From contig CM032117.1 in NCBI GenBank assembly GCA_018894105.1, positions 48,394,503-48,458,502 of the forward strand: DNA of 64,000 nt, given 5' to 3'. The notes beneath the pieces are model-generated. The model did not search any database. It had not been told where the DNA came from and saw nothing but the letters and a program-made list of their open reading frames with translations. Below, piece by piece: positions 1 to 28,550 of the stretch (positions are counted from its first letter, which is position 1; the number at the start of each line of letters is the position of its first letter). The translations under genes and the position numbers were made by a program. The DNA comes from Jacaranda mimosifolia. Taxonomy: Eukaryota; Streptophyta; Magnoliopsida; Lamiales; Bignoniaceae.

Positions 1-216
1 GGATTGTTGGAAACTGTTTTGGGAGAAGGATTTGTTTGGAAATACTCTGGGATGAGACAACTTTCATAATATAGGTCACTTCAGTCTGATTTTTGTTGGG
101 TAGGTACAGTGAAATTAAATTTTTTTTTCTTAATTATACATGCATATATATATAATTGTAATGATTGGTGTATATAGATGTATGTGTAATAATTAACAGA
201 TGAGATTTTTTTTTTT

Positions 217-247
<31 letters not shown>

Positions 248-1207
248 GGTGGGGGGGGGGTTGTTGATGGGGAGGGGGGCGGTGGGGGTGTTGGATACAG
301 GATTACACATGTGGTGAATGTATTATTGGTGAATATGGATGTTTGCTTGGAGGAGTTTTCCCTATTGGGACATGTTCTTGAAAAATACAGGCAAACAAGC
401 CCTAAGTATCTGTAGAAACTTGGTACTCATTTAATGCAATCAGTTCAGTGCCATTTTGATGGATAAAAATGCTTATCATGAATCTCACTGAACGTAGTTT
501 CATATCTCATATGACATGGTCAATAGAATCTAAGCAGATCATAGTACCATCATGAACCATTAAAAGTAACATTAACAGCATGTGTTAATTGACATCTCTG
601 ATTTATGTGCAACTGTTCTTAAAGTTTTAATAGTGTGTATTTATTCTAAACTGGACCTAGGATCAATTTACATTCAAATCATACAATAACAATAAAGACT
701 GGGTCATGTCATTCAGGTTAGATAGCGTGAAGCTGCAATAGTTTATAAGTAAGGCAGGAAATTTAGCTTTAGACTACACTGTTGATGATGCAAGATAAAA
801 TGTACAAATGCACAAAAATTATCCAGACTACAATAATTCTACACTAGCATCGTTCAGTTTTAGTACCTTATATGTGAGATTGTTCAAAAGGAGTCAATAT
901 GTCTTCACGATATATGACAAGCCTACCTTAAAAACTAGTATAAAAATAGTCAAAACCTATCAATTTGTTTTCTTGCATTTTTCAAATTTGAGTTAGATCC
1001 ATGAAAATTTCAACATGAAAAATATTTACCCCAACCCTCAACCCCCCAAAAAATTGGAGAGAGGAGGAAAGAAAAGAGGGAGAAAAAAAAACAAACAGTT
1101 TTATGTAAAAAACCTGCAGAAATGGGACAATATGAAGAATTTACTTAGTTTTGAATTGCCTTGACTTTCTTCCTATTGGCACAATAATTCTATTAAACGT
1201 GCTATAC
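1..1207 (-). other. part of GRV2 intron 8 (no coding exon seen)
   Basis: This is downstream, on the minus strand, of the GT donor that closes exon 8 at 1208. I see no further GRV2-like coding stretch here, so the intron must run past the left edge. It contains the T/G homopolymer at 206-260 and otherwise ordinary AT-rich sequence. Confidence 0.6.
206..260. repeat. T-run/G-run homopolymer junction
   Basis: A run of 21 T is followed directly by 23 G, one T and 10 more G. It lies within the intron that follows GRV2 coding exon 8. The short reading frame across it is purely homopolymeric and is not a gene. A similar junction (C16 then A12, which is T12 then G16 on the other strand) occurs at 63661-63688. 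Run lengths may be affected by sequencing. Confidence 0.9.
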
Positions 1208-7200: not shown

Positions 7201-10200
7201 CACTAAAAAAACAAAGAAAGAACCTAATAACTGAACAAGTGCCCTTATTTTCGTAAAAGTTCCAGACAGAGTAAAAGCAACTTCCAGTTATCATAATGGG
7301 GAACTTGAAAGAGTGACCAAGTATTTAGTCTATTTTAAACAAAACCCTAACTGTGCACCCATATGCAACCACTATCATGTTAACCTCTTTAATTTATCAA
7401 CATATTCCCTCTTCTTTTTAGATCCGAATTCATAGTTCTATAGTTCCATTTTTATGCTCCAAGTCCAGCAGGACAAAGACAAAGGAACATACTTGAGTTG
7501 CAACAATTCATGGAAAAGTATAACACTCAGCTTAACAGTAAATGCCTTCAATCTGAATATGGGTATATAAAAATAGAGAAGATCTTTTTAATCTAGCTCA
7601 AGAATCGCATGCAATCAATTGAGTATTAGTTAATTTAATTTTAGTTGCAAATTCTTTTCTTGCATTAGTCAAAAGCTAATGCAATAATGCAGTTCCAGCA
7701 ACAAAAAGAAACCCATCTTCTTATCAGATATGCATGCAGTAATGCTATGCTTACCAGAAGAGGGGAGAGGGTTGAAAACAGAAAACTAAAATCAAATGCT
7801 ACTAAAGTTTCCCTCATAATGTAAAAAGTAAGTCAAGGAAATTCAATTTCTAAACCAGATATTCCAACTCTAAATAGTTAGCATAATAAAGGAAGCCAAA
7901 GTATCAAAACATGAATATCCAAAAAACTAATTAAGCTAAACGTAGGAAGCACTAATGATGCTATGAAAGAACATCAGAGCCAGGCACATAACAGCATTTG
8001 CAATGTCTTCCCTGCAAGGATCCACCAGATATGATCAACGGACCATTGCCCAATCCTTAATTATGGCATAAGAATAGAGGATATTTATGATGAACAGAAA
8101 TTAATATGCTCAAATTTTTCGAAAGAGATGGAAAAATGTAAAATACAAAAGAGGTCTTTACTTAAACTAACATCATATCAAATAGTTCAATATCTCCAAT
8201 CGCCCAGGGAGCGTGGAACACAATACAAACAACTGTACTTCTGTGATCAATGATCTATTGCAAGAATGAATGCAGCTTCGTCATCCTAAGAAGGAGCACT
8301 CCAACCACAGGCCAATTCATCAGGTAAAGCTACCCAACTAGCAACCTCTCCACACAGGAAGATCAATGCATTAGAATGAGAGATTCACCACTAAATTAAG
8401 CATACAGGGGAGCTAGCACAAAGCCTATCAAAGTTGTCCCTTAAATAAGTAAGGATTCCAATGATACAACCACTAAAGATGGGGGGGAGAGGTCCAGCTT
8501 ACACTAAGATCATATGAATAAGATCCCAATATTCTAGCTAAATACAAAACAAAAGTTTGTCAATCACAACCTGAAAATCAGGGAACAAGTCCAGCTCATT
8601 TAGGATCATAGTTGTCAGTAGCGCGAAGCGCAGCGACGCGCAAAGGGACGCTGGAGCTATAGTGCATAGCGCGCTTTATTGAAATAAAGCGCACAATAAT
8701 TATATATGTATATATTTCTAATATATACCTAAATATCAATATATTTTACCTATTATAAAGAATAAACAACTAAATAATCACAAAAACAATGAAGAGACTT
8801 TTTTACCCAATAATTAATATTCAGTTTTTGTCCACCCTTGGAAACCAAAATTAGCATTTAACTACCCAGTAATTAATATTCAGTTTTTGCCCACCCTTGG
8901 AAACCAAAATTAGCATTTAGGTACAGTGAGATGAAAGGACACAGAAAAGGGGGAAAAAAATACAAAAAGATTTGGAAGAAGATGACGGAAACAAGAAATG
9001 AAAGAATAAAAAAAAGACGAAGAGGCTGCCAGTTCTGTAGAGAAGGCGAGAAGATGGCGGAATTGCAAAGAAGAGGGCTGCTGTTGCTCGTCACATGAAG
9101 AAGAAGGCTGTTGCTACTCGTTTCTTGCTGGTGGGAAGGGCAGAAGTCATGAAAAGGGGGTGGGTTTTCTAGGTTTTAGAGTTTCCGGCAGAAGCTTAAA
9201 GCGTATCCCTTTCTTTTTCCTAAAAACTGAGTAGCGATTTCTTTTTCTTTTCTTCTTTCTCGAAAAAGAGACTGGGTTCACCGTAGCGCAAGTAGCGCTG
9301 CACTGTGCTACTGCACAATAGCGCAAGTAGTGCAACAAAGCGCGTGCTATGTTTAACCTCGTTGTGCAGTGCGACACGAAGCACACAGGGTGCACTTCGC
9401 ATCGCACTGCGCTATAGCGCGCTATCTGCGCTTTTGACAAGTATGCTTAGGATGGTGATAATAATGCTCAACCAACGACCAAAACTTTTTCCCAACAGCT
9501 GAACAATTAATATTCCTTATCCTTCTTAGCCCTCTGATATTATGTTATGTATGGGGTCTGTTTCATTTAACATGGAAACAATGGTGAAGCCATTGAAGAT
9601 GAAGAGAGGTCGTAGAGAGAACTTCATCTCTCTTTTTTATATCATTTAATGCTACTGCTTCCCACAGTTTTGCACTCAATGAAAATGTGAATACTTTGTA
9701 ACCAAATAGTGCAATTTCCTTCCCAGCAAAATATGTGACTATTTATTTGTTGCAGAAGCTTTAGTCAGCAAAAAATTATCCCATGCTATAGCACCATGTC
9801 AACAATATCAATCATCAACAAGAAAGAAGGGAACCTAATCCAGCCCCGGTTATCAACATAATGGTTCTGACTAACGTTTAAGTCCAAAGGTATGAGCCAA
9901 CGAAGTAATAATCAAGAGAAACAGCATATGGAGCCAATAAATAGTAAACCCCGGATAAAATACCAAAGATTAGCATAACAAGTCAAGTAGAAGAAACATG
10001 TCAAAAAACTTACAAAAGGGACCCACTCTGAGGTCCTCCTCCGCAAATGAAGAACCGGAAACTCCACCACGGTAGCTAGCCTATTCCACCTTATTCGGTG
10101 CAGTTCAGTCAATATACTGGCCCTGTACTTGGACGAAAACTTTATGGCCTTAAATTTCCCACGGCCATCAGTCCGCACACTAATATTGAACTCATTGGAA

Positions 10201-10478
10201 TTTTCGCCCCTCCCAATGATTGGTGCAGCACCTTCGAAATCACTACCCACATCATATGAATTAGTCACAGATAAAGTGCTCGGATCCAAAGTAATAATAG
10301 CGTAATTGGAAATGCAGAGAATTCTCTTGTAACGACCGCGCCACGAGTGCTTAACGACCATGTATCGGGCCACATACTCGGGCTCTTCAGGAGGGGCAAC
10401 AGGCGTGGAAGTTGAGGCGGAGGGAGTAGGTTGTGGGTGGTCGGAAGGGGCCGCGGCGTGGCGGCTGACGAAGTCCAT
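1208..10478 (-). CDS. GRV2: DnaJ homolog GRV2/KAM2 (plant RME-8), 5' eight coding exons, partial
   Basis: Coding exons on the minus strand: 10478-10014, 7116-6883, 6681-6594, 6486-6278, 5520-5419, 5299-5237, 5021-2772 and 1570-1208. All have GT donors and AG acceptors, and the phases join in frame (155, 78, 29.3, 69.7, 34, 21, 750 and 121 codons; about 1,258 residues). I recognise the protein as GRV2: the N-terminus with the RME-8 PH-like region (YMVVKHSWRGRYKRIL), the AKEAVGAAETPLGGW and RPENYEAVIVRPLSS segments, the large armadillo-like exon 7, and in exon 8 a GYF-like region around KEWMFIDKDNAQVGP. The J domain and C-terminal half lie beyond the left edge (the family is roughly 2,500 residues). 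In Arabidopsis, GRV2 acts on endosomes in vacuolar and endocytic sorting and shoot gravitropism. The start is the ATG that begins MDFVSRHAAA. No stop or frameshift is visible, so this copy looks functional. Confidence 0.96.
1571..2771 (-). other. GRV2 intron 7
   Basis: A 1.2-kb intron with a GT donor next to 2772 and an AG acceptor next to 1570 (minus strand). Short open frames inside it show no family resemblance. I see no transposon ends. Confidence 0.8.
8607..9445. mobile_element. non-autonomous hAT-type element in GRV2 intron 1
   Basis: The ends match as imperfect inverted repeats: CATAGTTGTCAGTAGCGC at the left and, read on the other strand, CATACTTGTCAAAAGCGC at the right. Both continue into clustered AGCGC/GCGC subterminal motifs. 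Direct 8-bp flanks TTTAGGAT (8599-8606) and CTTAGGAT (9446-9453) differ at one base. An 8-bp duplication with subterminal motif clusters is typical of hAT elements. The interior has no transposase. It is an 839-bp MITE-like insertion inside the intron, away from the splice sites. Confidence 0.8.
8804..8921. repeat. 59-bp tandem duplication inside the hAT element
   Basis: Two near-identical 59-bp units start at 8804 (tacccaataattaatatt) and 8863 (tacccagtaattaatatt). Only a few bases differ. Both lie inside the hAT-like element. Confidence 0.85.
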
Positions 10479-10976
10479 TTGTGGCTCAGGGAGATAGTGG
10501 AGGGAGTGGAGCTGAGGAGGACTAGGCCGTAGAAAGAACCATATTCCACCTGCCGACGACGACGGCAGAGGTCTCGGCCTTGACTGATTGGCACCCAGAG
10601 CTTCAAATCTGAAAACCCTAAGGTGTTAACTTAAGCTATTGAAATCAACTCACAGTAGAACGATCGACTTTAAAACTCAATCAATCCGCATATGTGTTCA
10701 GCAGATCACTGAGATGAATAATAGTTGAATAAACAAATAATCAAATAAACATATAAAGGTTTGAGAAATTGAGATCAGGAGAGATTGAGGAGGAGAAATT
10801 GGGAATCAGCGTCGGTTCACAGGTAGAAAGACATTTCTCGGAGGATCGAAACCTATTCATGAAGAACAATAAATTAACAGAATCCGCATTCCCAAACCCG
10901 TAGACGCTATAACGCCTCTCGTTTTCTTAATCTTTTATTTTCTGTTAGCAAATAGACAAGAAAAAATTATGAATTA
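10479..10976 (-). promoter_or_regulatory. GRV2 5' flank: leader and proximal promoter
   Basis: This 498-bp stretch lies between the GRV2 ATG and the target-site duplication of the Mutator-like element. On the minus strand a pyrimidine-rich segment ending ttttcag (near 10611-10617) could be the acceptor of a 5'-UTR intron. That is inference; no donor was fixed. Any promoter elements farther than about 0.5 kb from the start codon have been pushed about 12.5 kb away by the insertion, unless the element supplies replacements. Confidence 0.5.
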
Positions 10977-11381
10977 TAAAGGGACACTTATTTAAAAGTA
11001 CCAAATATATTTTCCACTTTTGTGATTAGTTTCTACTTAATTTTTATTAGAAAAAACTCCATAGTTTTGTTAAAAGTTTAGAGATCACTCCCCACTTACT
11101 TGATTTGACAAAAATGCCCTTAAATATAATATTTTTTATTTATTTTTTCTCACTTCTTCTTCATTCGGACAAGCAAATAATAAACCCTATCATACCATAA
11201 ACAGAAAGAACAGAAAAAACGCAAGAAGCTCCACGGCAGGAACAAGAATAACGTTAGAGCCAAAAACCACCAACCCGATAGCTGCATTGTCTTCTTCTCT
11301 TTTTATTTTCATCATTTTTGGGTTTCATCTTCTTTTCAGTTTCTTCTCAGTTGCTTCCGAGTTTCTTATATTTTTCCAACA

Positions 11382-14300
11382 ATGTCAACCAGTAGTGAAG
11401 CAAGTGTACTCAATCAAGTGTTGGGGAATTGCCGCTACAAAGACCAGCTCTATATAATGTCAATTAAGGATAATATGACTTTAATGGATATGTACATTGA
11501 TCTTGCAAGAAAATGGAGTGAAATCAACGCCGAGCACTTCAGTTTGCAATATATAGCTCCACATCAAAGATTGTATGTGAGTTTAACTGATGACGATGAT
11601 GTCATGAATATGGTCTTACTGCATTTGACATTGAAGATGAATATTGTTGACATCTTGGTAAGCCAAAAGGATGAATCAAGTAGTAGGAAAAGAAGAGCAG
11701 TGATGTTTTAAGGTAATACTTCTACAAAATCTAAATTGTACTGCAGTTTATAAAGTTTTGTACTTGAAGTGTTCCGAAATTGCATTCTGTTTATTTGAAA
11801 ATCTTTCTGTACTTGTAACGTTCTACATTATACTTCATTGCAGTTAACATTGTACTTCATCTCACAAAAATTATACTTTATTATGTAAGTTTTATACTTT
11901 AAGTGTTCTACTAAAAGATTATCTAAAATTGTACTGCAACTTGTAGAGGTTTATACTTGAAGTGTTTCCAAATTGTACGTAATCTATACAAAATTATACT
12001 TTCTGTTTTCTGAAATTATTCATTTAACCAAAACTGTACTAAGTTGGTAGGGTTTTATACTTCAATTGTTCGGAAATTGTACTTAATTTTACACAAATTT
12101 GTACTCCAGTTATCTGAAATTGTACTTCATTTCACTAAAATTGTACTCTATTATTTAAGTTTTATACTTCAAAGTGTTCTACTAATTGATATCTAAAGTT
12201 ATACTGCTATTGCTAACGATTTATACCTGAAGTGTTAAAAACTGTACTTTTTTTTATTCAAAATTGTACTTCAATTTTTTGAGATTATACTTTATTTTAC
12301 AAAATCTTTACTTATTTATTGAAGGTCTATATTTTAAGGGTTATATTTATCGATTATCCAAAATACACTGCAGTTGCTAGGGCTTTATACTTCAAGAGTT
12401 TGAAATTGTAATTCACTTTATCTAAAATTGTACATTTATTTTCTGAAATTATATTTTCTTTTGTACTTCATTTTATAGAAACCTATACTCTTTTCATTGA
12501 AGTTCTATACTTCAAGTGTCCTAAATTGTACGTCATTTTATATAAACTTGTACTTCAATTATCTTAATCTACTATTTAACTTTCATGTTTTCTACTAATA
12601 AATTATCCAATTTGTACTGAAATTGCTAAGGTTTTATACTTCAAGTGTTCAGAAATCGTTCTTCACTTAATAAAAAATTGTATTTCTGTTTTTTAAAATT
12701 ATATTTCATTTTATACATCATTTTATTTAAATCTGTACTCTTGACATTGAAGTTCTATACTTCAGGTATTCCCAAAATGTACTTCATTTTACCTAAACAT
12801 GTACTCCATTCATTGAAGTTCTATACTTCAAGTGTCCTAAATTGTACTTCACTTTATCTGAAATTGTACTTCAATTTTTTGAATCTATTATTTAATTTAG
12901 AAGCGACTACGAATGGATTATCAAAAAATTATATTGCAATAGCTAAAGTTTTATACTTCAAGAGTTTCGAAATTGTACTTCAGGTTATCTAAAATTGTAC
13001 TTCGATTTTCTGAACTTATATTTCAGTTCTTAATAATTTCACCTAAATCTGTATATTCTTTTCATTGAAGTTCTATACTTCAGGTATTCTAAAATTGTAT
13101 TTCACTTTGTCTAATATTGTACTTCAATTTTTTGAAATCATACTTCATTTTATACATCATTTTACCGAAACTTGTACTACATTCATTAAAGTTCTATACT
13201 TCAAATGTCTGAAGTTGTACTTCATTTTATCTAAACTTGTACTTTAATTATCTGAACCTATTATTTAATTTTTAAGCGTCTACTAATGTATTGTCTAAAA
13301 ATTATACTGCAATAGCTAAGGTTTTATACTTCAGTTGTTTGAAATTGTACTTCATTTTATATAAAATTGAACTTAGATTTTTCGAAATTATACTTCAGTT
13401 TTTACATAATTTAACCTAAATTTGTATTCTTTTCAATGAAATTCTATACTTCAGGTGTTCTCAAATTGTACTTCACTTTGTCTAAAATTATATTTCTATT
13501 TCTTTAAATTATACTTCATTTTATACATCACTTTACCTAAACTTGTTCTCCATTTATTGAAGTTCTATACTTCAAGTGTCCTAAATTGTACTTCACTTTA
13601 TCTGAAATTGTACTTCAATTTTCTGAATCTATTATTTAATTTAGAAGCGACTACGAATGGATTATCAAAAAATTATACTGCAATAGCTAAAGTTTTATAT
13701 TTCAGGAGTTTCGAAATTGTACTTCATCTTATCTAAAATTGTACTTCGATTTTCTGAACTTATATTTCAGTTCTTACATAATTTCACCTAAATCTGTATA
13801 TTCTTTTCATTGAAGTTCTATACTTCAAGTATTCTGAAATTGTATTTCACTTTGTCTAATATTGTATTTCAATTTTTTGAAGTCATACTTCATTTTATAC
13901 ATCATTTTACCGAAACTTGTACTCCATTCATTAAAGTTCTATACTTCAAATGTCTGAAGTTGTACTTCATTTTATCTGAACTTGTACTTTAATTATATGA
14001 ACCTATTATTTAATTTTTAAGCGTCTACTAATGTATTATCTAAAAATTATACTGCAATAGTTAAGGTTTTATACTTCAGTTGTTCTTAAATTGTACTTCA
14101 CTTTATATAAAATTGAACTTAGATTTTTTGAAATTATACTTCAATTTTTACATAATTTAACCTAAATCTGTATTCTTTTCAATGAAGTTCTACACTTCAG
14201 GTCTTCTCAAATTGTACTTCACTTCTTTTACTTCTGTTTCTTAAAATTATACATCATTTTATCTAAATCTGTACTCTTTTAATTGAAGTTCTGTACTCCA

Positions 14301-16436
14301 GGTGTTCTCAAATTGTACTTCATTTTATTTTAGCTTGTACTTCAATTTTATAAATCTCTTAATTAATTTTCAAGTGTTATACTAATGAATTATCCAAAAA
14401 AGTGTACTGCAATTGCTGCGTTGTATACTTCTATTGTTTTGAAATTGTACTTCGTTTATTTGAAATTATACCACAATGCTGAATTATTCTACATATTGTA
14501 CTTTATTTTACCTAAAATTGTACTTCATTTGTCAACCTCAAGGGATGCAGTCGAGGAGGAAATTTGTTCGACCAATGCATCGCACAATGAATTGGCTTTA
14601 ATTAGCAACTCAATTAATGCATGGAGGAATTGCATACATGGAGAGGGTCAAACATTCAAGGATGCTGAGGAGTTCAGAATTATGCTTAAGAATTATGCAG
14701 TATCTACTTTGCGGTCGTTTAAATACAAGAAAAATGACAGCAGAAAAATCATAGCCGTTTGCAGTGATGAAAATTGCAAATGGAGAATCTATGCATCAAG
14801 GCATGAAGCTGATAAATTATTTGACATTCGAAAATGCAATCTAGAGCACACATGTGGTGAGACTAATCTTCGGACAAGGGGACATCCTAAAGCTGATTTC
14901 GCTTGGGTTGCTAATGTAGTGAATGATAAATTGAGATTAGAGCCATGTTATCGGCCCTCTACCATACTGAAAGATATTCACAGAGAATAGAGTGTGGAAC
15001 TTAGGTACCATAAAGCATGGATGGGTAAGGAATTAGCTATGCATAACATCCATGGAGCTGAGAAGGGATCTTATGATAAGTTGAGGTGGTACTGTGATGC
15101 TGTGAATAGGACAAACCCTGGAAGTATTGCAGACTGTGAGATTGACCCAATCAGTCGAAAATTTCGTCGGCTATTTATATGTTTCAATGCCTGCCTTCTC
15201 GATTTTCTCAGGGGATGCAGGCCATTGATATTCTTGGACGGCACCCATATTAAAATAAATACAAAGGAGTCTTACTCAGCGCTGTCAGTAAGGATGCTAA
15301 TGATGACTTATTCACGATAGCATATGCAGTTGTTGACTCTGAATATCTTAGATTCTGAATATCTACCTGGTTTTATCAATCTCTACCTGGCTTATCAAGG
15401 TTTACTTTCTTCTCCGATCGACATCCAGGTCTTCTTAAGGCCCTCCCTATGATATTTCCCGGTAGCCACCATGCATATTGCTTGAGATACTTAGTGGATA
15501 ACTTTAAGAAACAAGTAAGTGTACTTTATCTTTGTTTGTGAGACAATTATGTGAAATAAAATCTACTTCATAACATTAAGTACATTACTGTTCTATTATT
15601 TTAAATTCAGGTATTAAGGAAATACCCTCTACATAACAAGAAACATTGGTGTTCTGTTTTTATGAAAGCTGCATATGCGCCTACAAGGCAGGAGTGTCGG
15701 GTATATAGACAGTATGTTGGCGTCAATGCCGCTTGCCAAAGACTTTATTATGCAGTCTGACCCACCATGTTGGGCAAATTCTTTATTCAGTGGAGATCGA
15801 TGGGGGGTAATAAACAATAATCAAGCAGAAAGTTGGAATAATTGGGTTAAACTAGCCCGATTTATGCCAGTTGCAGCCATGGTTGATCACATACGCATGC
15901 AAATAATTGTTATGATGCATGATAGACGAGAAGAATCTCATAAGATGGTTGGCCAATTATGTCCTAAGCAAGAGAAGAAGTTAGCAATCAATCATATGCG
16001 TTCTCTTAACTTAAAAGTTGTCATGTCTAGCGGTTGGAGCTTTGAGGTGATTGGGCAAGATAAATCGTATGCTGTAGATTTACAGAGCAGAGTTTGTTCG
16101 TGCGGAGTATGGCAGATTGATAAAATACCATGCAGACATGCTTGTGCTTGTATTGAGTCAAAGTCACTTTCACCGTATGACTTCACCGATCAATACTACC
16201 GAGTTGAGATGTATCAACAAGCATACCAGGCAGTTATAAACCCTATTCCTACGTTTGATATGCAAATGTTCCCTGTATATGATGATGACGTCATTCATGC
16301 ACCTGATTGTCGATCTCAGCCTGGGCGTAGAAGGACACAGAGGATTCCATCACAGATTGAGAAACGTGTAATTAAGTGTAAAAAGTGTGGTAGAACAGGG
16401 CATAATCGTCGAACTTGCAAAGAATTAGTAAACTAG
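11382..16436 (+). pseudogene. MuDR-type MULE transposase, decayed
   Basis: Parts in order: an N-terminal PB1-like segment (11382-about 11657, MSTSSEASVL... with acidic TDDDDVMNM, ending at a possible gtaagc donor); a 2.8-kb repeat-filled gap; the MuDR N-terminal DNA-binding domain (14560-14987, CSDENCKWRIYA, CNLEHTC); the DDE core with first Asp in LIFLDGTHIK (about 15222), second in SDRHPGLL (about 15413) and Glu in NNNQAESWNNW (about 15820); a SWIM zinc finger (CSCG...CRHAC, 16099-16140); and a CCHC knuckle CKKCGRTGHNRRTC (16377-16420). Breaks: a TAG at 14988-14990 where copy 2 has a Tyr codon, a frameshift near 15262, a missing stretch near 15345 corresponding to about 20 residues of copy 2, and a frameshift near 15690. 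Introns are likely, including one at about 15517-15610. It cannot make a full transposase as it stands. Confidence 0.9.
11712..14530. repeat. TGTACTTCA-type degenerate repeat array in the transposase gene
   Basis: About 2.8 kb made almost entirely of variants of TTGTACTTCA and TTATACTTCA with short AT-rich linkers. Superimposed is a larger duplication of about 744 bp: the block ending near 12992 recurs ending at 13736, and the block 13065-13247 recurs at 13810-13992. Short open frames in it translate to repetitive LKFYTS/LYFIL strings and are not genes. The array separates the N-terminal and core coding segments of the transposase, so it probably lies in an intron. Confidence 0.9.
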
Positions 16437-17540
16437 TTAACTTTTGTACCTCAATACAAGATAATTGTACTTGATTTCTTCGCATTTGCACCTCACTTGG
16501 GCAATGAAGTAGGTGATTTAGCGTGAAATTAGCATTCCCGCATGTTGTCTGAGACATAGTTAACTTTTGTACCTCAATACGGGATAATTGTACATGATTT
16601 CTTCGCATTTGCACCTCACTTGGACAACTTTGTACTTAATTAATATCTTGGTATTTTTACTAATATTTTTGAATTGAAATTTGTTCAAAGATTTGATTTT
16701 TAATTCTTGGTAATTAATAACCAAACTATTGAAGTATGTGTCCAATATTTATCATATGAATAAAATAATATTAAAAATTTTAAGTTGTTAATCACTAGTG
16801 TTCAACGGATGAATGTTATCAATCGCAGTAATGAAAGAATACTTATGCTTTCAAAGATGTAACGAAATGAGAATTTGACGATGCTATCCACCCTACCATC
16901 CGTACAAATTCATATTTCACCAGATCCGACAATCTCAAATTATTGTACTTGCCCATCATTACAATTATTGGAGAATAATTATTCAATTTGAATAAGTGTA
17001 CTTCAAGAAAACAAATCTTATACTTCAATTGTCCGATTTTATACTTCATATCTCCGGAATTGTACTTCATTTGTACTTCGTTCCCCTGATTTGTACTTTG
17101 TTTTCCATGAATTGTACTCAAGATCCACGCCTTGTTTCAATTGAATTTAAGTGTTCTTTAGCGACACACATTTTATACTTTCTTTCTTCCGGGTTTGTAC
17201 CTCATTCCCCCTTAATTGTATTCAAATTCCCTGCCCAGTTTCAATTGAATTGAAGTGTACTTCAACGAAGCACATTTTATACTCTGTTTATCTAAATTTG
17301 TACTTTGTTTCCCGTGAATTGTACTCAAGATCCCCGCCTTGTTTCAATTGAATTTAAGTGTTCTTCAGCGACACACATTTTATACTTTCTTTATTCCAGG
17401 TTTGTACCTTATTTCCCCTGAATTGTATTCAAATTCCTTGCCCAGTTTCAATTGAATTTAAGTTATAAATAATTAATGGAAAATTAAACTTACATACAAA
17501 ATAATATTATAAACAAATTATGCTTCAATTTACACATGTA
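16437..17540. repeat. spacer between convergent MULE genes, GTAC-cored duplications
   Basis: Contains a direct duplication of about 120 bp (16437-16500 recurs at about 16557-16622, ttaacttttgtacctcaata) and a second duplication with a period of about 207 bp (caagatcc...ccgccttgtttcaattg at 17119 and 17326). Many tgtactt and tgtacct motifs recur, as in the transposase intron. No gene is seen. Confidence 0.85.
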
Positions 17541-18639
17541 TTTACATACAAGTGATTCAAATCCTGGCATTTTCATAACTTAATATTGTATATGCCATTT
17601 TCGCATGATATTTATCAATTTCAATTGTTCTAGCATCCCTCCAGAACTCGGGGGTGTCTCTAGCAAAACATTCTGCCCAAATGCATACATAGACACCACA
17701 ATCCACTGTACCCACTTGCTGCCTGCCTTTTCTCGGCTTTATCTGTTCATCCACACGACTCCCCAATGAAAGCTTCATGTACCAAGAATAGAATGAAGCC
17801 TACAAAAATATTGATCAGTTGTTGACTCCCTAATTTATGAAGAAATCATAGGGAAAGAAAGCAAACTTACAATAGCAATAGCTATCGGTTTGTATCTGGC
17901 GGCCATTATTGAATTCATGTATAAGAAAGAATGAGTTGAGGTGTTGAGGACAACCAAGAACCAGTGCTAGCGCCGGCAAATCGATAGGATTATGTAACGA
18001 CACTCGTTTAAAACATCCATCGTGAGCTCTTCCAAGTCTGTACAGGTGAAGTTGTTCAGTTTAAGCTTCAACTCCACAAATTCTTCATCCGTAATATCCT
18101 TGATGTTGCATTCCTCTAGTCGGTCTAATATATCAGCTTATGAAGTATAAAACAAATGGTTAGACTCATTTGTCACCGTGAACTAAATTAAGTTAGGAAA
18201 CTGCCACATACCTGCGCTATTGAGGACGTAAACCACACCTTGTAGTGACACTTCTCCCTGAAAGATGGGCTACATAATATCGACATGTAACAGTCCACTA
18301 TGTCACCGGTAAGTTCTCCTCCAAATAAAAGCTCACAAAAGTTTTGTCCATCTAGAAACTGTCTTGCTCCTTCCCATACAGTCACCCTACACAATTGTTA
18401 ATGGTTAGTTCAGATACCAATTTATCCAACAGAAAAATAATAAGCAAATTTTGTTACCTCAAATTATCTCTTCTGACAAAGTTGTCGATGACTTCTGGCT
18501 CTTCTACTGGAATAAGAGCAAGACCTCTACAATAGTCCTTCCTTTATAGGGATCGGCCACTTCAGTCTTTGGGATGGTTGGTTCATCTACCACCTAGAGT
18601 GGTTCATCTGCCACCTGGATTAGTTCATCTGCCACCTGG

Positions 18640-19560
18640 GGTACAAAACACAGCACATAGGTACAAAGTATCAACTATTGAAGTAGAAAATATAAGCACA
18701 TGAAGTACAGATATCACCAACATGGAGTACAAAAATTTAGCACATTAGGTATAAAGTGTCAACTATTGAAGTAGAAAAGATAAACACATGAAGTACAGAC
18801 ATCACCAATGTGGTGTACAAAATTCAAGCACATTAGGTATAAAATGTCAACTATTGAAGTAGAAAAGATCAGCAGTTGAAGTACAGATATCACCAATATG
18901 GTGTACAAAACTCAAGCACATTAGGTATAAAGTGTCAACTATTGAAGTAGAAAAGATCAGCACTTGAAGTACAGATATCACCAACATGGTGTACAAAACT
19001 CAAGCACATTAGGTATAAAGTGTCAACTATTGAAGTAGAAAAGATTAGAACTTGAAGTACAGATATCACCAACATGGAGTACAAAGATTAAGCACATTAG
19101 GTATAAAGTGTCAACTATTGAGGTAGAAAAGATCAGCACTTGAAGTACAGATATAACCAACATGGTGTACAAAACTCAAGCACATTAGGTATAAAGTGTC
19201 AACTATTGAGATAAAAAAGATCAGAACTTGAAGTACATATATCACCAACATGGAGTACAAAAATTAAGCACATTAGGTATAAAGTGTCAACTATTGAGGT
19301 AGAAAAGATGAGCACTTGAAATACAGATATCACCAACATGGTGTACAAAATTCCAGCACATTGGTATAAAGTGTAAAGCACAGAAGTACAGATATCACCA
19401 ACATGGAGTACAAAACCCAAACACATTAGGTATAAAGTGTAAAGCACAGAAGTACAGATATCACCAACATGAAGTACAAAACTCAAGCACAATAGGTATA
19501 AAGTGTCAACTATTTAAGTAGAAAAGATCAGCACATAAGTGCAAGTATCACCAACATGAA
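18640..19560. repeat. 88-bp tandem repeat array in a Ulp1-gene intron
   Basis: Units contain cacattaggtataaagtg, caactattgaagtagaaaa and gaagtacagatatcaccaac. Copies of cacattagg begin at 18741, 18829, 18917 and 19005, an exact 88-bp spacing, and about ten units continue to near 19560 with some shortened. The minus-strand frame at 19199-19492 is a translation of the array, not a gene. Every unit carries several GTAC cores. Confidence 0.93.
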
Positions 19561-21309
19561 GTATAAGACATCATCCATTAAGTGCAAATATCAACCAATC
19601 AAGTATAAGATATCATAACATTTATTACAAACAGACAGTTTACAAATGAAATGCAAGTAGCAAAAAAATAAAACATTAAGTAGTGTACAACACCTTCTTC
19701 TCTTCTTGTTCTTTGTTTTTTCGTGCACGAGGACAAGCATGATAGGTCTTTTTCACTTGTCTTCCTCTTTTGGCTGGTGTGGTGCTCGGGGGGCTGACAA
19801 AATCTGGAGATTTTTGTTTTGGCTTCCTGTCTCCTCAATTGCGCACATTTGTCACAATTGAGGACATGACATTTGCCACTTCAATCTCAGATTCCTCGAA
19901 CTCAGCCGCTTGAATTAGTATATAATGTTCTGTCTTCAAATGTAAGGGGGAATCTAAATGATCATGACGTTGTTTGGTTCGACTTTCTTCATCCAACATG
20001 TCTTCAAAATCATCCCCTTCTTTATGTGCATCATGTACCAAATCAAGTTCCCCCTCATGCACATACTCACCAGCTTCCTCCTCAAGCTCCACCCCATCAG
20101 TCTCTTCATCAGTTAGATGCTCCTCATCACCCTGCTCCTTCATTGCCATGTATTCGAATGAAGCAATTTTTTCTTTCAATGATTTAATTTCTTCACCTTT
20201 CGCTGTAATAATTGCTTCATATATTGTATGATCACAGACATGGACTTCACTGATGGCAGTACTGGCAGCCTCTAATTTCTTGATCAAATCTACCAATTCT
20301 AACTCATATGGAGCAGGGTTGAGGGCTACAACCTATTATAATGGAAATAATTATCAAATTCAAATTATTATACAAAAAAATAATAATGAATTATTACAAT
20401 TATTACCATATTTGCTGTAACTTGCTTCAATTTATTCTCTGCTTGCTCCATATTTTGTGGGAGTTTGCTATCCTTCCACCGGTAAAAACGTGGAAACTTA
20501 AACAAACTCACTGGTGAAGCCAGTGACGGGATGCGTTCATAAACCTATGCCTGTCATACATAAATCAAAAAATTATATTCACTTGAATATAAATATAATC
20601 AATGTCATTAGAAAAATGAAGCAAACACTTACCATCAAGCCGACTGTACACCCATCAATGTACTTCTTTCTTCTTTCTCCACCTACTCCTAAATGGTTCT
20701 TCATATCTTGCACAAGAAAACTGTATGCAGCTATGCCCCATGCATACAGACCAACTCTAGACAAATTGTCCAAGTATGGTAGGAGAAATCGTGGAGTCCA
20801 ATAATTAGATGTTGGAAACAGAATACAATTAAAAACAAAAACTATGTACAACCTACAAAAATTATTCAAGTCCTCCACACTATCCTTATATATATACTCC
20901 TCAAGTTTTTTTGCTATTTCAGATCTAGTTATATTCTGCACTTTCCAGAAAAAAGGCGGTCAAAGGTTGAAGACTTCAACTTCAATGTTATATCAACAGA
21001 TTGCCCCACGTGTGGCAACCCTAAAACCATTGAAAATTCAGCTGCAGAAAAAGGAACCTCACCCCCCTCCGCAAAGTGAAATGAGAGCTTTTTTGGGTCA
21101 AACCTCCTAACTATAGCTTCAAGCCGAATGAAGCTTGAACTTAACTTAGGCATATCTATGTATATATAGAAAGAGGTCTTCTTCAATGCATCAAAATGTT
21201 TGGACCCCATCTTGGACTTCACAAGCTCCAACTTACTTTGAAAATATTGGGGGGAGCAACGAGAACAGACCTCACAATGTCTTGACTTTGCTGCAATGAG
21301 AAAAAAAAT

Positions 21310-22830
21310 AGTATATAAACAGATAATAAACTAACCCTTTTAGATAGAGTGTATTACACTTTCAGTTATTCTATGCTTTACGCTTGAATTTTTTATATTA
21401 CAGTTGCTTCTAAAATATAATGCAGATACACAGATTATATACTAGAGTTCCATTTAATGTATACTGCATGCTTAAAGGTTTTATACTTCAGTTGCTTCTA
21501 AAATGTACTGCAAATACAAAGATTATATACTACATTTTCAGTTAATGTATAATGCAGGCTTGAATGTTTATGTACTAAGATGCTTCTAAAATGTACTGCA
21601 TACACTTATGCCTAAAGTGTACTGCCTGTTTGAATGTTTTATACTACATTTGTTTATAAAATGTACTGCACCTACAGAGATTTTATACTACACTTTTGCC
21701 TAAAGTGTACTCCAGATGCTTCTAAAATGTACTGCAGCTATTCAGATTATATACTACCTTTTGCCTAATGTATACTGCAAGCTTGAATGCTAAATACTAC
21801 ATACATTTGTTTCTAAAATGCACTGCAGCAACGCAGATTATATACTACACTTATGACTAAAGTGTACTGTCAGTTTGAATGTTTTATACTACATTTGTTC
21901 CTGAAATGTACTACACCTACAGAGATTTTATACTACACTTTTGCCTAGAGTGTACTCTAAATGCCCTAAAATGTACTGCAACTATGCAGATTATATACTA
22001 CATTTTTCCTAATGTGTACTGCAAGTTTGAATGCTTTATACTACACATATGCCTAAAGTGTACTGCCAGTTTGAATATTTTATACTACATTTGCTTCTAA
22101 AATGTATTGTACCTACAGAGATTTTATACTATACTTTTGCCTAAAGTGTACTCCAGATGCTTCTAAAATGTACTGCAGCTATTCAGATTATATACTACCT
22201 TTTGCCTAATATATACTGCAAGCTTGAATGCTTTATACTACATACATTTGTTTCTAAAATGTACTGCAGCAATACATATTATATACTACACTATGCCTAA
22301 AGTGTACTGTCAGTTTGAATGTTTTATACTACATTTGTTTCTGAAATGTACTGCACCTACAGAGATTTTATGCTACACTTTTGCCTAAAGTGTACTCCAA
22401 ATGCCCTAAAATGTTCTGCAGCTATGCAGATTATATACTACATTTTCTCTAATGTGTATTGCAAGTTTGAATGCTTTATACTACACATATGCCTGAAGTG
22501 TACTGCCAATTTGAATATATTATACTACATTTGCTTCTAAAATGTACTGCACCTACAGAGATTTTATACTACGCTTTTGCCTAAAGTGTACTCCAGATGC
22601 CCTTAAAATGTACTGCAGTTATACATATTATATACTACCTTTTCCCTAATGTGCACTGCAAGTTTGAATACTTTATACTACACTTATGCCTAAAGTGTAC
22701 TGCCAGTTTGAATGTTTTATACTACATTTGTTTCTATGTTACCTAGATTATATACTACACTTTTGCTGATGTGTGCTGCATGCTTCGATGTTCTGTACTA
22801 CAGATAACACACTACCACATTCAAATAGTT
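21310..22830. repeat. GTACTGCA-type array in the large first intron of the Ulp1 gene
   Basis: About 1.5 kb of alternating tatactacattt, aaaatgtactgca and taaagtgtact motifs. A higher-order duplication of about 440 bp is visible (21879-22100 recurs at 22319-22540), with a partial third copy near 22680-22740. It lies between Ulp1 exon 1 (23158-23095) and exon 2 (from 21290), so it is intronic. The short plus-strand frames are repeat translations. Confidence 0.9.
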
Positions 22831-23687
22831 TTATAATATAATTTCACCATATAATTTTAGTTAAAAAGAAGTATAAAGCCCAAAAAGGTGAAGTGCAACT
22901 TTCGTGACCTTCAAGTACAAATCAGAACTTCCCATCTCACAATAGAAATCATATATATATATATATATCAAATGGGTTCAAGTGTTTAACGACTAAAAAA
23001 TGAATAAAAACCCTAAACATGAGAAAATAGACAACAAATCAGTGTAACACTGAAAAATCACGGACATTTGAAGTTTCAAATGCAAAAAACATACCTTTGT
23101 TCCTTTTCGTCACTTCTTTTTGTACTTTGCTTCTTCTTGCCGCTGTTTTTCCTTCCATTGTCGCAGAAAAATGGCAGAAATTTTGTTGTTGTTTTTTTTT
23201 TTTTAACTTCTTATTCTCGCGTCAGTGGCAGAGGAACGGTTTTGCGCCCTTTTGTTTTGGCGCTTAGAGAAGTCGATTTCAGGCAAAAATATAAAAAAAG
23301 AAAGTGTTCTTCTTAAGAGATAACGCATTTCCCAGGTATTTTTGTTGTTTTTTCCAGCTGCAAGGCTATACAAGTCTTTCTAAAAGATATGGGAGTGATT
23401 CCTAACTTTTGTGAAAAAGTGGGGAGTTTAGTGTGTAAATATTTAAATGGGGACTGAACACTAAATTAAAAGTAGATTGAGGGATTTTTTTCTAATTAAC
23501 TCAATTATGAATTACTTATTCAATTATCAAAAAAAAAAAAAAGAATTGCTAATTCGCTATTTTAGCTACACATGAATCGTGATACCTTCCTAATAAATCC
23601 TTATATTTAGTTTTAAGGCCACTTACTACTATAAAGTACCAAAATCATTTTTCAATTTCAAAATTAGTCCCCACTTGATTTTTTAAA

Positions 23688-24718
23688 GGATTAAATTTAT
23701 TTTATCCCTTTATACTATGAGGTAGGTGTCAAATCCTCTTATACTACCAAAACCTTCAAATACTCCCCTCAAACTTCTTTATTGTTAGAAAAATAACGAT
23801 TGTTTAACTGATGTGACACTAAAATTATATTCCTTTATGCACATGATAGTTGGAAATTTTGATGTCCAAAATATCCTTATGAGTTACTGTATAATGCTCA
23901 AGTTTCTTACTTCAATTTTGTTATTTCATTTTAGAACTTAAAGCATCATCTAACTTCTAATCCAATAAAACAAACACATTAAATCATTTCATTTCTCTTT
24001 TAAAGAACATTAAAGAACTCAATTCTAATGTATAACATATAAGACCAACAAAACAAAGGTTGCTTGCGCGGAAAAAAACACATGGAACCATTATATGTAT
24101 TTCTATTTCGTAACTATTTGTTTAAAAAATTTTAAATCTGCATTTGTTTTGGGATATAAAAATTCTATAATAATATGTAGGATTTTGCTATATTTCGCTT
24201 ATAATTTATCATTACTCTATAAAACTCTAATTGAATAAGTAAATTGAAAAAGAAATCAAAATTCTAGGGTTTTAAGGTTGAGATATACTAACCGATTAAT
24301 TTCAGACATCTCGTAAAAGATTAATTCGCTTGTTCCTCCACATATAAATACTATATCTTTTGGTACTTACCATCGAATTTCTGCTAGATCTTTTTTAAAA
24401 TTTTGGAATGATATTTTAGGGTTTTTCTTTGTGAGTAAGAAGAAAAGGAAGCCAAATATATTTGTCTCTTTCAGTCTTTCTTTTTATGCCAAGAACAAAT
24501 TTGTCTATACAGGAAAAAAAAATGCCACATGTCCCTAGTTTTTATGTTATTTAGTTATTTTTTTAGTTTAAATAAGTAATTTACGGTAGAGTTTTAATAC
24601 AGTCAACTATTTTATTAATGACATATAACTTTGAGGGGAATATTTTAAGGTTTTAATAGTATAAGGGGGTATTTGACATCTCTCTCATACTACAAGGGGG
24701 TAAAATGAATTTGAACCC
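23688..24718. mobile_element. 1,031-bp Mutator-type MITE inserted in the terminal repeat of MULE copy 2
   Basis: A perfect 9-bp direct repeat TTTTTTAAA flanks it (23679-23687 and 24719-24727). The ends are inverted repeats of roughly 80-90 bp: left GGATTAAATTTATTTTATCC; right, on the other strand, GGGTTCAAATTCATTTTACC. Matching blocks continue inward (ACTATGAG, GTGTCAAAT, TACTCCCCTC-like). A 9-bp duplication with long TIRs is the Mutator signature. There is no coding capacity inside. Its TIRs differ from those of the host MULE, so another element probably mobilised it. Confidence 0.9.
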
Positions 24719-25120
24719 TTTTTTAAACAATGAACTCCCTACTTTTTGTAAAATTTAGATATCATTCCCTACCAATTTGATTCGACAAAACTACCCTTAA
24801 GTATAATATTTTTCCTATTATTCTTTTAACTTCTTCTCTATCCACACAACCAAACAACCTTTATCCCAATTCTCAACCACTAAACCCTACCTTCATCTTT
24901 CTTTGCTAGAAATAGAAAGAAAAAAAAAAAGATACAGAAGACAACTGATCTCGACGGAGCGAACGACGAGCTCGACGGTGCAACCACGACCACCACATTT
25001 CCTTCTTCTCATTTTATTTCATCATTTTCAGGTCATTTTCTCAGTTTATTTTCATTCTTTTCAGTTTATTTTCTCAATTTATTATCAAGTCATTTTCTCC
25101 ATATTGTAGTTTTTCGAAAA

Positions 25121-25364
25121 TGTCAACTAGTGGTGAAGGATGAGTGTTCACTCAAGTTTTAGGGAGTTGCTGCTATAAGGACCAGCTCTATATAATGTCA
25201 ATTAAGGATAGTATGACTTTAATGGACCTGTACCTTAATCCCACGAGAAAATAGAGTGAAATCAACGACGAGCTCTTCACTTTGCACTACGTAGCTCACC
25301 AAAGATTGTGTGTAACTTTGAGCAGTGACGACGATGTCATGAATATGGGCTTACTTCATTTTAC
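25121..25364 (+). pseudogene. N-terminal PB1-like segment of MULE copy 2 transposase
   Basis: Closely resembles the N-terminal segment of copy 1 (11382-11635): MSTSGEG, then an in-frame TGA where copy 1 has Ala-Ser, then YKDQLYIMSIKDSMTLMDL, an internal TAG, and SSDDDVMNMGLLHF. It is followed directly by the repeat block. Confidence 0.85.
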
Positions 25365-26310
25365 CTAAAATTGTACTGCATTATTGAAGTTTTATACTTG
25401 AAGTGTTCTACTAATTGATTATCTAAAATTGTACTGCATTGCTAGTATTTTATAATTGAAGTGTTCTGCAATTGTACTTCATTTATTTGAAACTGTACTA
25501 TGATGATGAATTATTATTCTTCAAATATTCTATATTTATACTCCATTTTACCTAAAATTGTATTGCATTGTTGAAGTTTTATACTTGAAGTGTTCTACTA
25601 ATTGATTATCTAAAATTGTACTGTATTGCTAATATTTTATACTTGAAGTTTTCTGCAATTGTACTTCGTTTATTTGAAATTGCACTACAATGTTGAATTA
25701 TTATTCTTCAAATATTCTATATTTATACTTCATTTTACCTAAAATTGTACTGCATTGTTGTCGTTTTATATTTGAAGTATTCTATTAATTGATTATCTAA
25801 AATTATACTGCATTGCTAGTGTTTTATACTTGAAATATTCTATAATTGTACTTCATTTTATTTTAAACTGTACTACAATGCTAAATTATTGTTCTTTAAG
25901 TATTCTACATTTATACTGCATTTTAACTAAAATTATACTGCATTGTTGAAGTTTCATAGTTGAAGTATTCTATTAATTGATTATCTAAAATTGTACAGCA
26001 TTGCCAGTGTTACTTGAAGTGTTCTTGCAATTGTACTTTGTTTATTTGAAACTGTACTATGATGTTAAATTATTATTCTTCAAGTATACTACATTTATAC
26101 TTCATTAGTTTATTTTACCTAAAATTGCACTGCATTGTTGAAGTTTTATACTTTAAGTGTTCTACTAATTGATTATCCAAAATTGTACTACATTGCTAGT
26201 GTTTTATACCTGAGGTGTTCTACAATCGTATTTCATTTAATTGAAATTGTACAATGTTGAATTATTGTTCTTCAAATATACAACATTTATACTTCATTTA
26301 CCAAAAATTG
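25356..26310. repeat. GTAC-cored repeat block of MULE copy 2
   Basis: About 0.95 kb of repeated units of roughly 170-190 bp, such as aaattgtactgcattgttga, tactaattgattatctaaa and ttattcttcaaatattctac. It occupies the same position as the 2.8-kb array of copy 1 but is about one third as long, so array length differs between copies. Confidence 0.88.
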
Positions 26311-26319
26311 TACCGCATT

Positions 26320-28550
26320 AGTAAACTCCAAGAGGTGCATTAGAGGATGAAATTGGTTCAACCAATACATCTGAAAATGAATTGGCTTTAGTTAGCAACT
26401 CAATTGATGCATGGAGGCATTGCATATATAGAGAGGGTCAAACGTTCAAGAATGCTGAGGAGTTCAGAATTATGCGGTCGCTATTATGCAGTCATTTCAA
26501 TAAAATAAAATGACACAAAAAAATCATAGATATTTGTAGTGATGAAAATTGCAAATGGAGAATCTATGCATCAAAGCATGAGGCTGATAAATTATTTGGC
26601 ATTTGAAAGTGCAATCTAGAGCACACATATGGTGAGGCTAATCTTCAGATGAGGGGACATCCTAAAGTCGATTCCACTTGGGTTGCTAACATAGTAAAGG
26701 ATAAATTGAGATAAGAGCCATGTTATCGCCTATCTACTATGTTGAAGGATATCCACAGAGAATATGGTGTGGAACTCCAATACCATAAAGCATGGATGGA
26801 TAAGGAATTAGCTATGCATGACATCCATGGAGTTGAGAAGAGGTCTTATGATAAATTGAGGTGGTACAATAATGCTGTAAGGAGGACAAACCCTTGAAAT
26901 ATTGCAGATTGTAAGATTGACCCAACTAGTTGGAAATTTCGCCAGCTATATATATGTTTTAGTGCCTGCCTTATTGGCTTTATTAGGGGATACAGGTCGT
27001 TGATATTCTTAGATGGCACCTATATTAAAAATAAAAATAAATATAAAGGAAGCTTACTCAATGTTGTCAGCAAGGATGCTAATAATGCCTTATTCATGCT
27101 AGCATATGCAATTGTTGACTCTGAAAATATTAGTAATTGGGAGTGGTTCTACTTTAAGCTAAGAAGTGTTTTAGATTCTAAATATATGCCTGGCTTATCA
27201 ATGTTTACATTTTGCTCCGATCGACATACAGGTCTTCTTAAGTCCATCCCCATGATATTTCCTAGTAGCCACCATGTATATTGTTTGAGATACTTAGGGC
27301 TCGTTTATTTTGAATGATGTGATTAGAAGTGATATATAAGCAAATTGATACATTTTAATCCCATTAGAAATTATAATATTTTAATTTTATGTTTGCTTGG
27401 TAAGATTAATATATAAATAAATTAAAATATAATATATATATAAATTTACTATTATATTCTTTATACTTTTTAATAAGTTTTTCACAATTTCCTTATTCTT
27501 CCCCATTCTTAGGAACAAGGTTTAATTGGAAATAAGATAAAAAAAAAAAAAAAAGGTTCTATTTGATCTTTGTAATTATAATCACACCACATCAAGCATT
27601 CCCTCCCTTGATCCATTTTCCAAAAACAACAATAAATAATGTTGGGCCTTGAATTTATCAATGGCCTTTTATCAATTGAAACAAACATTAAAAGATGCTT
27701 GATTATGTATGTATCATACCTAATCAAGCCAAGTAAACAAGCCCTTAGTGGATAACTTCAAGAAATATGTAGGAACTTTATCTTTACTTGTGAAACAATT
27801 ATATAAAATAAACTCTAATTCATAACATATAGCATATTAACAATCCCATTATTTTAAATCCAAGTATTAAGAAAATAACCCCTACATAACAAGAAACATT
27901 GGTTTTCTGTTTTTATGAAAGCTGCATATGCGCCTACAAATGAGGAGTACAATCGACATATAGATAACATCTTAGAGTCAATGTCGCTTGCTAGTAACTT
28001 TGTTATGTAGTCTGAGCCACAATGTTGGGAAAATTCCTTATTCAGTGGAAATCGATGGGGGTAATAAACAATAATCAAGTAGAATGTTGGAATAATTAGG
28101 TGAAACCAGCCCGATTTATTCCAATTGCAGCCATGGTTGATCACATACGGAAGTAAATAATGGTTATGATGCATGGTCGACGAGAAAGATCTCACAAGAT
28201 GGTTGGTCAATTATGTCCCAAGCAAGAGAAGAAGTTAACAATCGATTATATGAACTCTCATACCTTAAAAGTTATCATGTCTAGCAGTTGGAGCTTTGAG
28301 GTGATTGAGCATGACAATCGTATACTGTAGATTTGCAGAGTGGGGTTTGTTCTTGCAGAGCGTGGCCGATTGATAAAAAACCATGCAAGTATGCTTGTGC
28401 TTGAATCAAGTCAAAGTCACTTTCACCATGTGACTTTACAGATCAATACTACCGAGTTGAGATGTATCAACAAGCATACCAAGCAGTGATAAACTCTATT
28501 TCTACTTTCGATATGCATATGTTCCCTCCAGATGATGACAACAATATTAG
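26320..28550 (+). pseudogene. MULE copy 2 transposase core, decayed
   Basis: Parallel to 14550-16300 of copy 1. It shows the MuDR N-terminal domain with several stops, FLDGTYIK (first Asp, about 27005), an intact stretch through FCSDRHTGLLKS (second Asp), then the Tourist insertion, then QVECWNN (Glu, about 28080) and a SWIM-like CSCRAWPIDKKPCKYAC in which the His is now Tyr. It retains the roughly 20-residue segment (SNWEWFYFKL...) that copy 1 lacks, and reads Tyr where copy 1 has the TAG, so the two copies decayed independently. It has many stops and is not functional. Confidence 0.88.
27297..27744. mobile_element. Tourist-type (PIF/Harbinger) MITE, 448 bp
   Basis: Flanked by TTA (27294-27296 and 27745-27747). 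Terminal inverted repeats: GGGCTCGTTTATTTTG at the left and GGGCTTGTTTACTTGG at the right on the other strand. MULE copy 1 provides the empty site: there the same coding stretch reads gatacttagtggataac without interruption. The interior is AT-rich, has an A14-16 run, and has no gene. Confidence 0.95.

Follow-up and report, generated by a model that had tools for sequence, protein, structure and literature searches.

Hosaka 2017 (PMC5735166) describes how the VANC proteins of Arabidopsis recognise short motifs within tandem repeats of non-coding DNA and cause the loss of DNA methylation there: VANC21 recognises YAGTATTAY, in repeats that include those within VANC introns, and the VANC6 motif is AGTTGTMC. 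VANC genes bearing a Ulp1 domain, termed KIU, act likewise according to a 2026 review (PMC13317346), and in the KI-MULEs, which are Mutator-like elements (MULEs), Ulp1 lies antisense to the transposase (PMC2528002). We analysed a 64,000-nucleotide stretch of contig CM032117.1 (hereafter the window), which holds a Mutator-like transposon with convergent transposase and DUF1985/PMD-like plus Ulp1 genes. We propose that this element is a VANC/KIU-type anti-silencing MULE with a motif of its own, TRTACTDCA, and that motif binding and demethylation are its predicted activities; from the comparisons below we put the probability of this reading at roughly three in four. An earlier note on this DNA regarded the architecture as undescribed, a view that does not hold, since Hosaka 2017 (PMC5735166) describes it for the Arabidopsis VANDAL/VANC system; what is new here is the word TRTACTDCA. 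No description of this motif or of a similar element from its host was found in the literature searched.

The likeness to VANDAL21 (Hiun) and VANC21 extends over several features: a MULE with a second gene carrying DUF1985 (in our element a candidate match, below cut-off), gain and loss of repeats among copies, and variable protein regions with tandem peptides. In VANDAL21, too, a 9-bp motif is piled up in non-coding repeats, including introns of VANC and VANB and the region upstream of the transposase gene. In contrast to VANDAL21, the element described here carries a Ulp1 domain, two genes rather than three were recognized, and the motif is TRTACTDCA, HAGTAY-like on the other strand, rather than YAGTATTAY. 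The sequences with which the transposase was compared included none from an Arabidopsis VANDAL, and the element is at most a candidate for the VANDAL clade proper. VANDAL6/8 with VANC6 likewise have motif arrays in non-coding DNA; array A1 of the element contains AATTGTAC, one base from AGTTGTAC, and the exact AGTTGTMC motif is nearly absent. Like our element, the KAONASHI/KIU MULEs of Arabidopsis and the Ulp1 MULEs of melon, rice and grapevine have a Ulp1 gene that runs opposite to the transposase (KI-MULE); they differ from it in host and motif (PMC2528002, PMC13317346). The term "tandem repeat" is absent from the text of the paper on the grapevine Ulp1 MULE (PMC2528002). MULE groups such as MULE-Solanaceae_1 combine, much as here, a SWIM transposase with an antisense PMD open reading frame (ORF) (PMC6446971), and the term "tandem" is absent from the main text of that paper.

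To describe the repeats we used lag analysis, which bore out the five arrays with individual periods listed in the earlier note: 744 bp at 11.7-14.5 kb, where lag 22 scores still higher, 123 bp (given there as 120) at 16.4-16.6 kb, 207 bp at 17.0-17.5 kb, 88 bp at 18.6-19.6 kb, and 440 bp at 21.3-22.8 kb. Tandem Repeats Finder, run with a period limit of 500, agreed on 207, 88 and 440 bp, assigned 374 bp to the first array, and did not list 16.4-16.6 kb. A core unit of 21-22 bp is the commonest neighbour spacing in every array, and the long periods are higher-order forms of TRTACTDCA repeated every 21-22 bp. The predominance of a GTAC core was likewise confirmed, with 48, 17, 21 and 26 occurrences in the four arrays versus 8.4, 2.4, 6.3 and 8.1 expected from dinucleotide shuffles, and TRTACTDCA proved to be the better core (49, 5, 9 and 34 by array versus a shuffle expectation of 0.0-0.6). 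By modelled compartment, the word occurs 49 times in transposase intron 1, 5 times in the spacer, 9 times in VANC-like intron 4 and 35 times in VANC-like intron 1. These 98 occurrences lie in 6,812 bp of non-coding DNA, compared with none in the modelled exons (4,496 bp), one in a short intron, and one in both flanks together (1-10900 and 28600-64000, 46.3 kb). The earlier note was right that a single motif has been amplified in several distinct arrays, which occupy introns of the two genes as well as the spacer.

Within each compartment the word nearly always has a single orientation. Spacings of 21-22 bp account for 45/76 and 40/53 of the neighbour distances in the two large arrays versus random-placement maxima of 11 and 11, and for 8/15, 5/15 and 10/24 in the smaller ones versus null maxima of 5, 4 and 7, copied units making the spacings in these five arrays less than independent. 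Work by Sasaki (EMBO J, 2022) reportedly found that specificity depends on the sequence of the motif, on its density and on its helical periodicity; a two-turn spacing would fit this. When the four arrays were anchored on TACT, agreement was in excess by 0.61 at the T located two bases before the anchor, and by 0.18 and 0.24 at the following CA; elsewhere it was 0.09-0.12 just upstream, 0.23 at +9, and near zero at other positions. The word is common to the four arrays, and the linkers largely are not. A de novo expectation-maximisation motif search returned blurred AT-rich motifs only and was dropped. CpG is nearly absent from A3 (18625-19616) and A4 (21340-22800), with 0 and 4 sites, and CHG sites are present there at 21 and 41 per kb.

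We compared the window copy with 10 other copies from the same genome, both ends being found in 8 of them. The arrays keep the same compartments and orientation in these sister copies; in C17, where loss of exon 2 leaves intron 1 unmeasurable, a 657-bp remnant still carries 18 TRTACT, and C7b has a partial duplication of transposase exons. The exons of the 11 copies, 47,652 bp in total, contain no TRTACTDCA. The four array compartments range in length, the window included, over 2054-2842, 1026-2026, 620-1213 and 1347-2238 bp. Pairwise alignments to the window showed indels of, for example, 22, 44, 65, 87, 109, 197 and 440 bp. The three introns show 28 indels between 15 and 200 bp long, of which 26 deviate by no more than 2 bp from a multiple of 21.8 bp (about 23% expected by chance), as do 15 of the 17 distinct sizes; indels shared by descent make these counts less than independent, and they omit the spacer, where the repeat units are different, and nine intron indels above 200 bp (285-749 bp). 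The copies differ by gain and loss of whole repeat units.

The earlier description of a Ulp1-carrying Mutator element is supported by MuDR-type transposase domains (DBD_Tnp_Mut and SWIM), which place the element among the MULEs, and by matches to Peptidase_C48. A domain profile search assigned the three modelled transposase exons to PB1-like, MuDR DNA-binding and SWIM regions. Exon 1 shares 38% identity with the N-terminus of a Henckelia protein, P0011, and since this single chain spans both the PB1-like and the DNA-binding exon, the 2.8-kb array between exons 1 and 2 is supported as intronic. Exon 2 is damaged in the window by an in-frame stop near 14988 and by deletions (972 bp versus 981-994 bp in the sister copies, where it was found in 9/10). 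The VANC-like gene comprises eight modelled exons antisense to the transposase; its start codon and exon junctions were located in the sequence, the acceptor of exon 7 being placed by eye, and the segment 23095-23502 was found in 10/10 sister copies. In the window this gene is broken by a frameshift near 20945 and a stop near 19837. The Peptidase_C48 (Ulp1) match has an E-value of 5.5e-11 on read-through and 1.8e-5 on the last exon alone. A 21-bp tandem repeat at 18581-18643, mostly within a VANC-like coding exon, yields 7-residue peptide repeats, which bring to mind the tandem peptides described from the variable regions of VANC proteins. Four relatives of the VANC-like protein were found, one in Primulina (59% across a portion of the DUF1985/PMD region), one in Henckelia (47%) and two in Handroanthus (about 30%). 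A search by sequence for a solved VANC structure found none, the best matches of one search being calreticulin tails, taken as acidic low-complexity similarity. The structure predicted for the Henckelia relative gave no useful information (mean predicted local distance difference test score 35.7), and a scan of viral contigs found no relative.

On the favoured reading, the antisense-coded VANC-like protein would bind TRTACTDCA, many copies of which would face almost the same side of the helix, and would strip the element and its sister copies of DNA methylation; demethylation would then allow the transposase to be expressed and to mobilise copies. The arrays would gain and lose length through unequal exchange or slippage, with the spacing kept and the linkers drifting.

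Several results weigh against this reading. The A. thaliana words are absent or rare in the five arrays (YAGTATTAY 0, AGTTGTMC 3). On read-through, the PMD match (E 1.5e-7, 31.4 bits) and the DUF1985 match (E 8.2e-5, 23.0 bits) fall below their Pfam gathering cut-offs of 34.9 and 35.1 bits. The transposase model, complete in 9/11 copies, contains an internal stop in 9/9; the first stop lies at a different position in each of the nine, and the reading frame of the ancestral copies was therefore probably intact. The modelled VANC-like frame has stops in 11/11 copies, being open to residue 607 in C12 and 623 in C15, and beyond that the frame is lost alike in many copies, which may reflect an error of the exon model. 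Finally, the motif barely outlasts its linkers after insertion: differences among copies in four comparisons were 1.8 versus 2.2%, 1.8 versus 2.6%, 3.3 versus 3.0% and 3.1 versus 4.0% for motif and linker (ratios 0.84, 0.67, 1.10 and 0.78; p 0.16, 0.018, 0.36 and 0.11). Base-matched differences, given as counts with no significance figure, were 91 observed versus 114.6 expected from the linkers, 45 versus 71.5, 134 versus 127.1 and 48 versus 62.4, a small deficit in three comparisons and an excess in one. These comparisons covered the introns only and drew on 6 and 4 copies for the two length classes of transposase intron 1 (C17 excluded), on 8/11 copies for VANC-like intron 1 (C17, C1b and C5 were set aside because of their length) and on all 11 copies for intron 4. 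Strong purifying selection on the motif after insertion is unsupported, one comparison of four giving an uncorrected p<0.05, and post-insertion constraint is a mild effect at most. The earlier note had argued that the repeats would be incidental rather than a family property if related copies lacked the arrays or if the core decayed as fast as the linkers; the related copies keep the arrays, and the core decays only slightly less than the linkers. The decay test separates the models poorly, because decay of this kind is also what one would expect of silenced, dying copies.

Neutral satellite growth, in which AT-rich introns spawned 22-bp repeats by slippage and the motif is without function, gains from this small difference in decay and from length changes typical of unequal exchange. 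Mismatch between repeat units within the window copy bears on it as well: motif and linker differ by 5.3 versus 9.8% in A1 (p 0.003), 1.4 versus 6.2% in A3 (p 0.11), and, in A4, 8.6 versus 15.2% as 88-bp units (p 0.0008) and 3.6 versus 3.9% as 440-bp units (p 1); in A2, the motif had 0/10 mismatches and the linker 11/364 (p 1). A phase-shift control placed the motif phase among the lowest in mismatch in A1 and A4 only, not clearly in A3, and this retention in the higher-order copies of A1 and A4 counts against neutral growth. In the array of a degraded sibling copy in the window (Table 1), the motif phase was not the least changed (9.6 versus 6.4% for the linker, p 0.14), as neutral growth would have it. 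The C of TACT changed less than linker C in 4/4 comparisons (3.8 versus 5.4, 2.1 versus 6.8, 5.3 versus 6.3 and 2.9 versus 7.7%), again a point against neutrality, in a comparison that ignores sequence context, which governs plant methylation. A further difficulty is that four arrays with largely unrelated linkers carry the same word at the same spacing, with none in exons, because one neutral expansion would share linkers too. We consider neutral growth unlikely.

A host-factor site or a keeper of intron length, such as an enhancer, splicing or insulator repeat, would account for the length of the array-bearing introns and the survival of arrays in the sampled copies; the intergenic spacer carries an array too, and orientation is not fixed relative to VANC-like transcription (sense in intron 4, antisense in intron 1), so that we give this explanation very little weight. 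Binding sites of the transposase spread inside the element, comparable to the subterminal repeats of En/Spm, which are transposase-binding sites, would suit a short word in nearly always one orientation per compartment, and are highly improbable because neither the 417-bp 5' end nor the 356-bp 3' end, where a transposase must act, contains TRTACT; the arrays fill introns instead. Among the roles for the motif raised in the earlier note, a protein-binding site thus remains likely, and end-binding by the transposase is disfavoured.

The element boundaries were placed by eye from the sister copies, which begin with GGGACACTTA and end in AACTC, flanked by 9-bp target-site duplications. The first base is accordingly at about 10981 rather than 10977 as first annotated; that boundary follows from a 12-bp exact match, AATTATGAATTA, at 10965-10976 and 23503-23514, which is partly target context. 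Exact 9-bp duplications flank 4/10 sister copies (C1a, C17, C12 and C5), with a fifth seen by eye (C6); duplications with one mismatch, by eye, flank the window copy, C1b and C7a. None was found in C4, and the 5' end was not located in C15 and C7b. Terminal inverted similarity is weak (score 63 versus a shuffled maximum of 53), which fits the degenerate or missing terminal inverted repeats typical of VANC/VANDAL elements. The coordinates of all features are collected in Table 1.

Table 1. Coordinates of the element, its genes and arrays, and the sibling copy in the window (TSD, target-site duplication).
Feature	Position	Strand	Remarks
Left TSD	10972..10980		9 bp, 1 mismatch versus right TSD; by eye, sister copies begin GGGACACTTA
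Whole Mutator-like element	~10981..23502	+	termini common with sister copies; degenerate terminal inverted similarity
Transposase exon 1, PB1-like	11382..11712	+	PB1 E 3.7e-4, 20.8 bits, under the 23.6-bit gathering cut-off
Transposase intron 1	11713..14542	+	nearly all array A1
Compartment holding array A1, 22-bp monomer, 374/744-bp higher-order unit	11713..14542	+	49 TRTACTDCA, all on +
Transposase exon 2, MuDR DNA-binding domain	14543..15514	+	DBD_Tnp_Mut E 1.1e-17
Transposase exon 3, SWIM and weak zinc-knuckle match	15611..16436	+	SWIM E 4.7e-7; zinc knuckle under cut-off
Spacer between both genes' 3' ends, array A2, 123- and 207-bp units	16437..17556	+	5 TRTACTDCA, 16 TRTACT
VANC-like exons 8-5, Ulp1 (Peptidase_C48)	17557..18635	-	C48 profile match
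VANC-like intron 4	18636..19693	-	array A3
Compartment holding array A3, 88 bp = 4 x 22	18636..19693	-	9 TRTACTDCA on - strand
VANC-like exons 4-2, acidic variable and DUF1985/PMD-like regions	19694..21290	-	profiles, translations, junctions
VANC-like intron 1	21291..23094	-	array A4
Compartment holding array A4, 44/88/440-bp units	21291..23094	-	35 TRTACTDCA on + strand
VANC-like exon 1, start codon and basic segment	23095..23158	-	ATG and donor located
Right TSD	23503..23511		by eye
Degraded sibling copy, transposase part only (alignment extent)	24733..28540	+	identities from alignment to element
Sibling-copy array, same intron, 187-bp unit	25352..26319	+	14 TRTACTDCA

The sibling copy lies just downstream of the element in the same orientation, with its PB1-like exon partly missing at the array edge. 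Its identity to the element is 84.9% over a stretch with most of exon 3 and 66.5-73.8% in two long stretches that include the array, and alignment of 24733-28540 found no match to the VANC-like gene. Apparent nested insertions were seen by eye near 23720-24690 and 27300-27740. On the other side, some 500 bp separate the element from the ATG at 10478 of minus-strand ORFs (2718-10478) that, judged by sequence features only, resemble a GRV2/RME-8-type DnaJ gene. The ORF at 34549-35631 resembles, by eye, a Ty3-type reverse transcriptase.

The family is high-copy in the genome: a scan of the 707-Mb, 65-contig assembly holding the window with the Ulp1 part gave 706 candidates, of which 40 were scored, namely the window and 39 others at 95-97%. 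The transposase had 134 homologues, and among the 120 listed the nearest transposable-element relatives came from the Lamiales genera Henckelia, Primulina, Erythranthe, Andrographis and Striga, which makes a Lamiales host likely, and from ginger; these 120, some of them unnamed, included no named Brassicaceae protein. In a first tree of 38 hand-picked matches, Zingiber officinale P0015, P0020 and P0053 nested among Henckelia and Primulina transposases. A single Lamiales clade without ginger was rejected (approximately unbiased p-value 0.0004) with 30 hand-picked rows that held 3/4 named ginger matches, the group having been defined after the first tree. The four ginger matches come from contigs that all differ in length (134-166 Mb) and may belong to two assemblies. 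From the tree, the ginger copies look like a horizontal transfer of the MULE lineage, of which a limited literature search found no report. We offer only tentatively, and regard as doubtful in its entirety, the wider proposal of an anti-silencing MULE lineage separate from the Brassicaceae VANDALs, with its own TRTACTDCA code at two-turn spacing, high-copy in a probably Lamiales genome and horizontally transferred into ginger, a monocot, outside the eudicots where such systems have been described.

If the VANC/KIU-type reading is true, it extends VANC-type transposon counter-defence to another, probably asterid, genome. The motif, the spacing rule and the unit-sized variation among copies are readable from sequence alone, and the arrays could predict which copies a given VANC-like protein demethylates. 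TRTACTDCA would then be a possible new addressable DNA word for sequence-directed demethylation.

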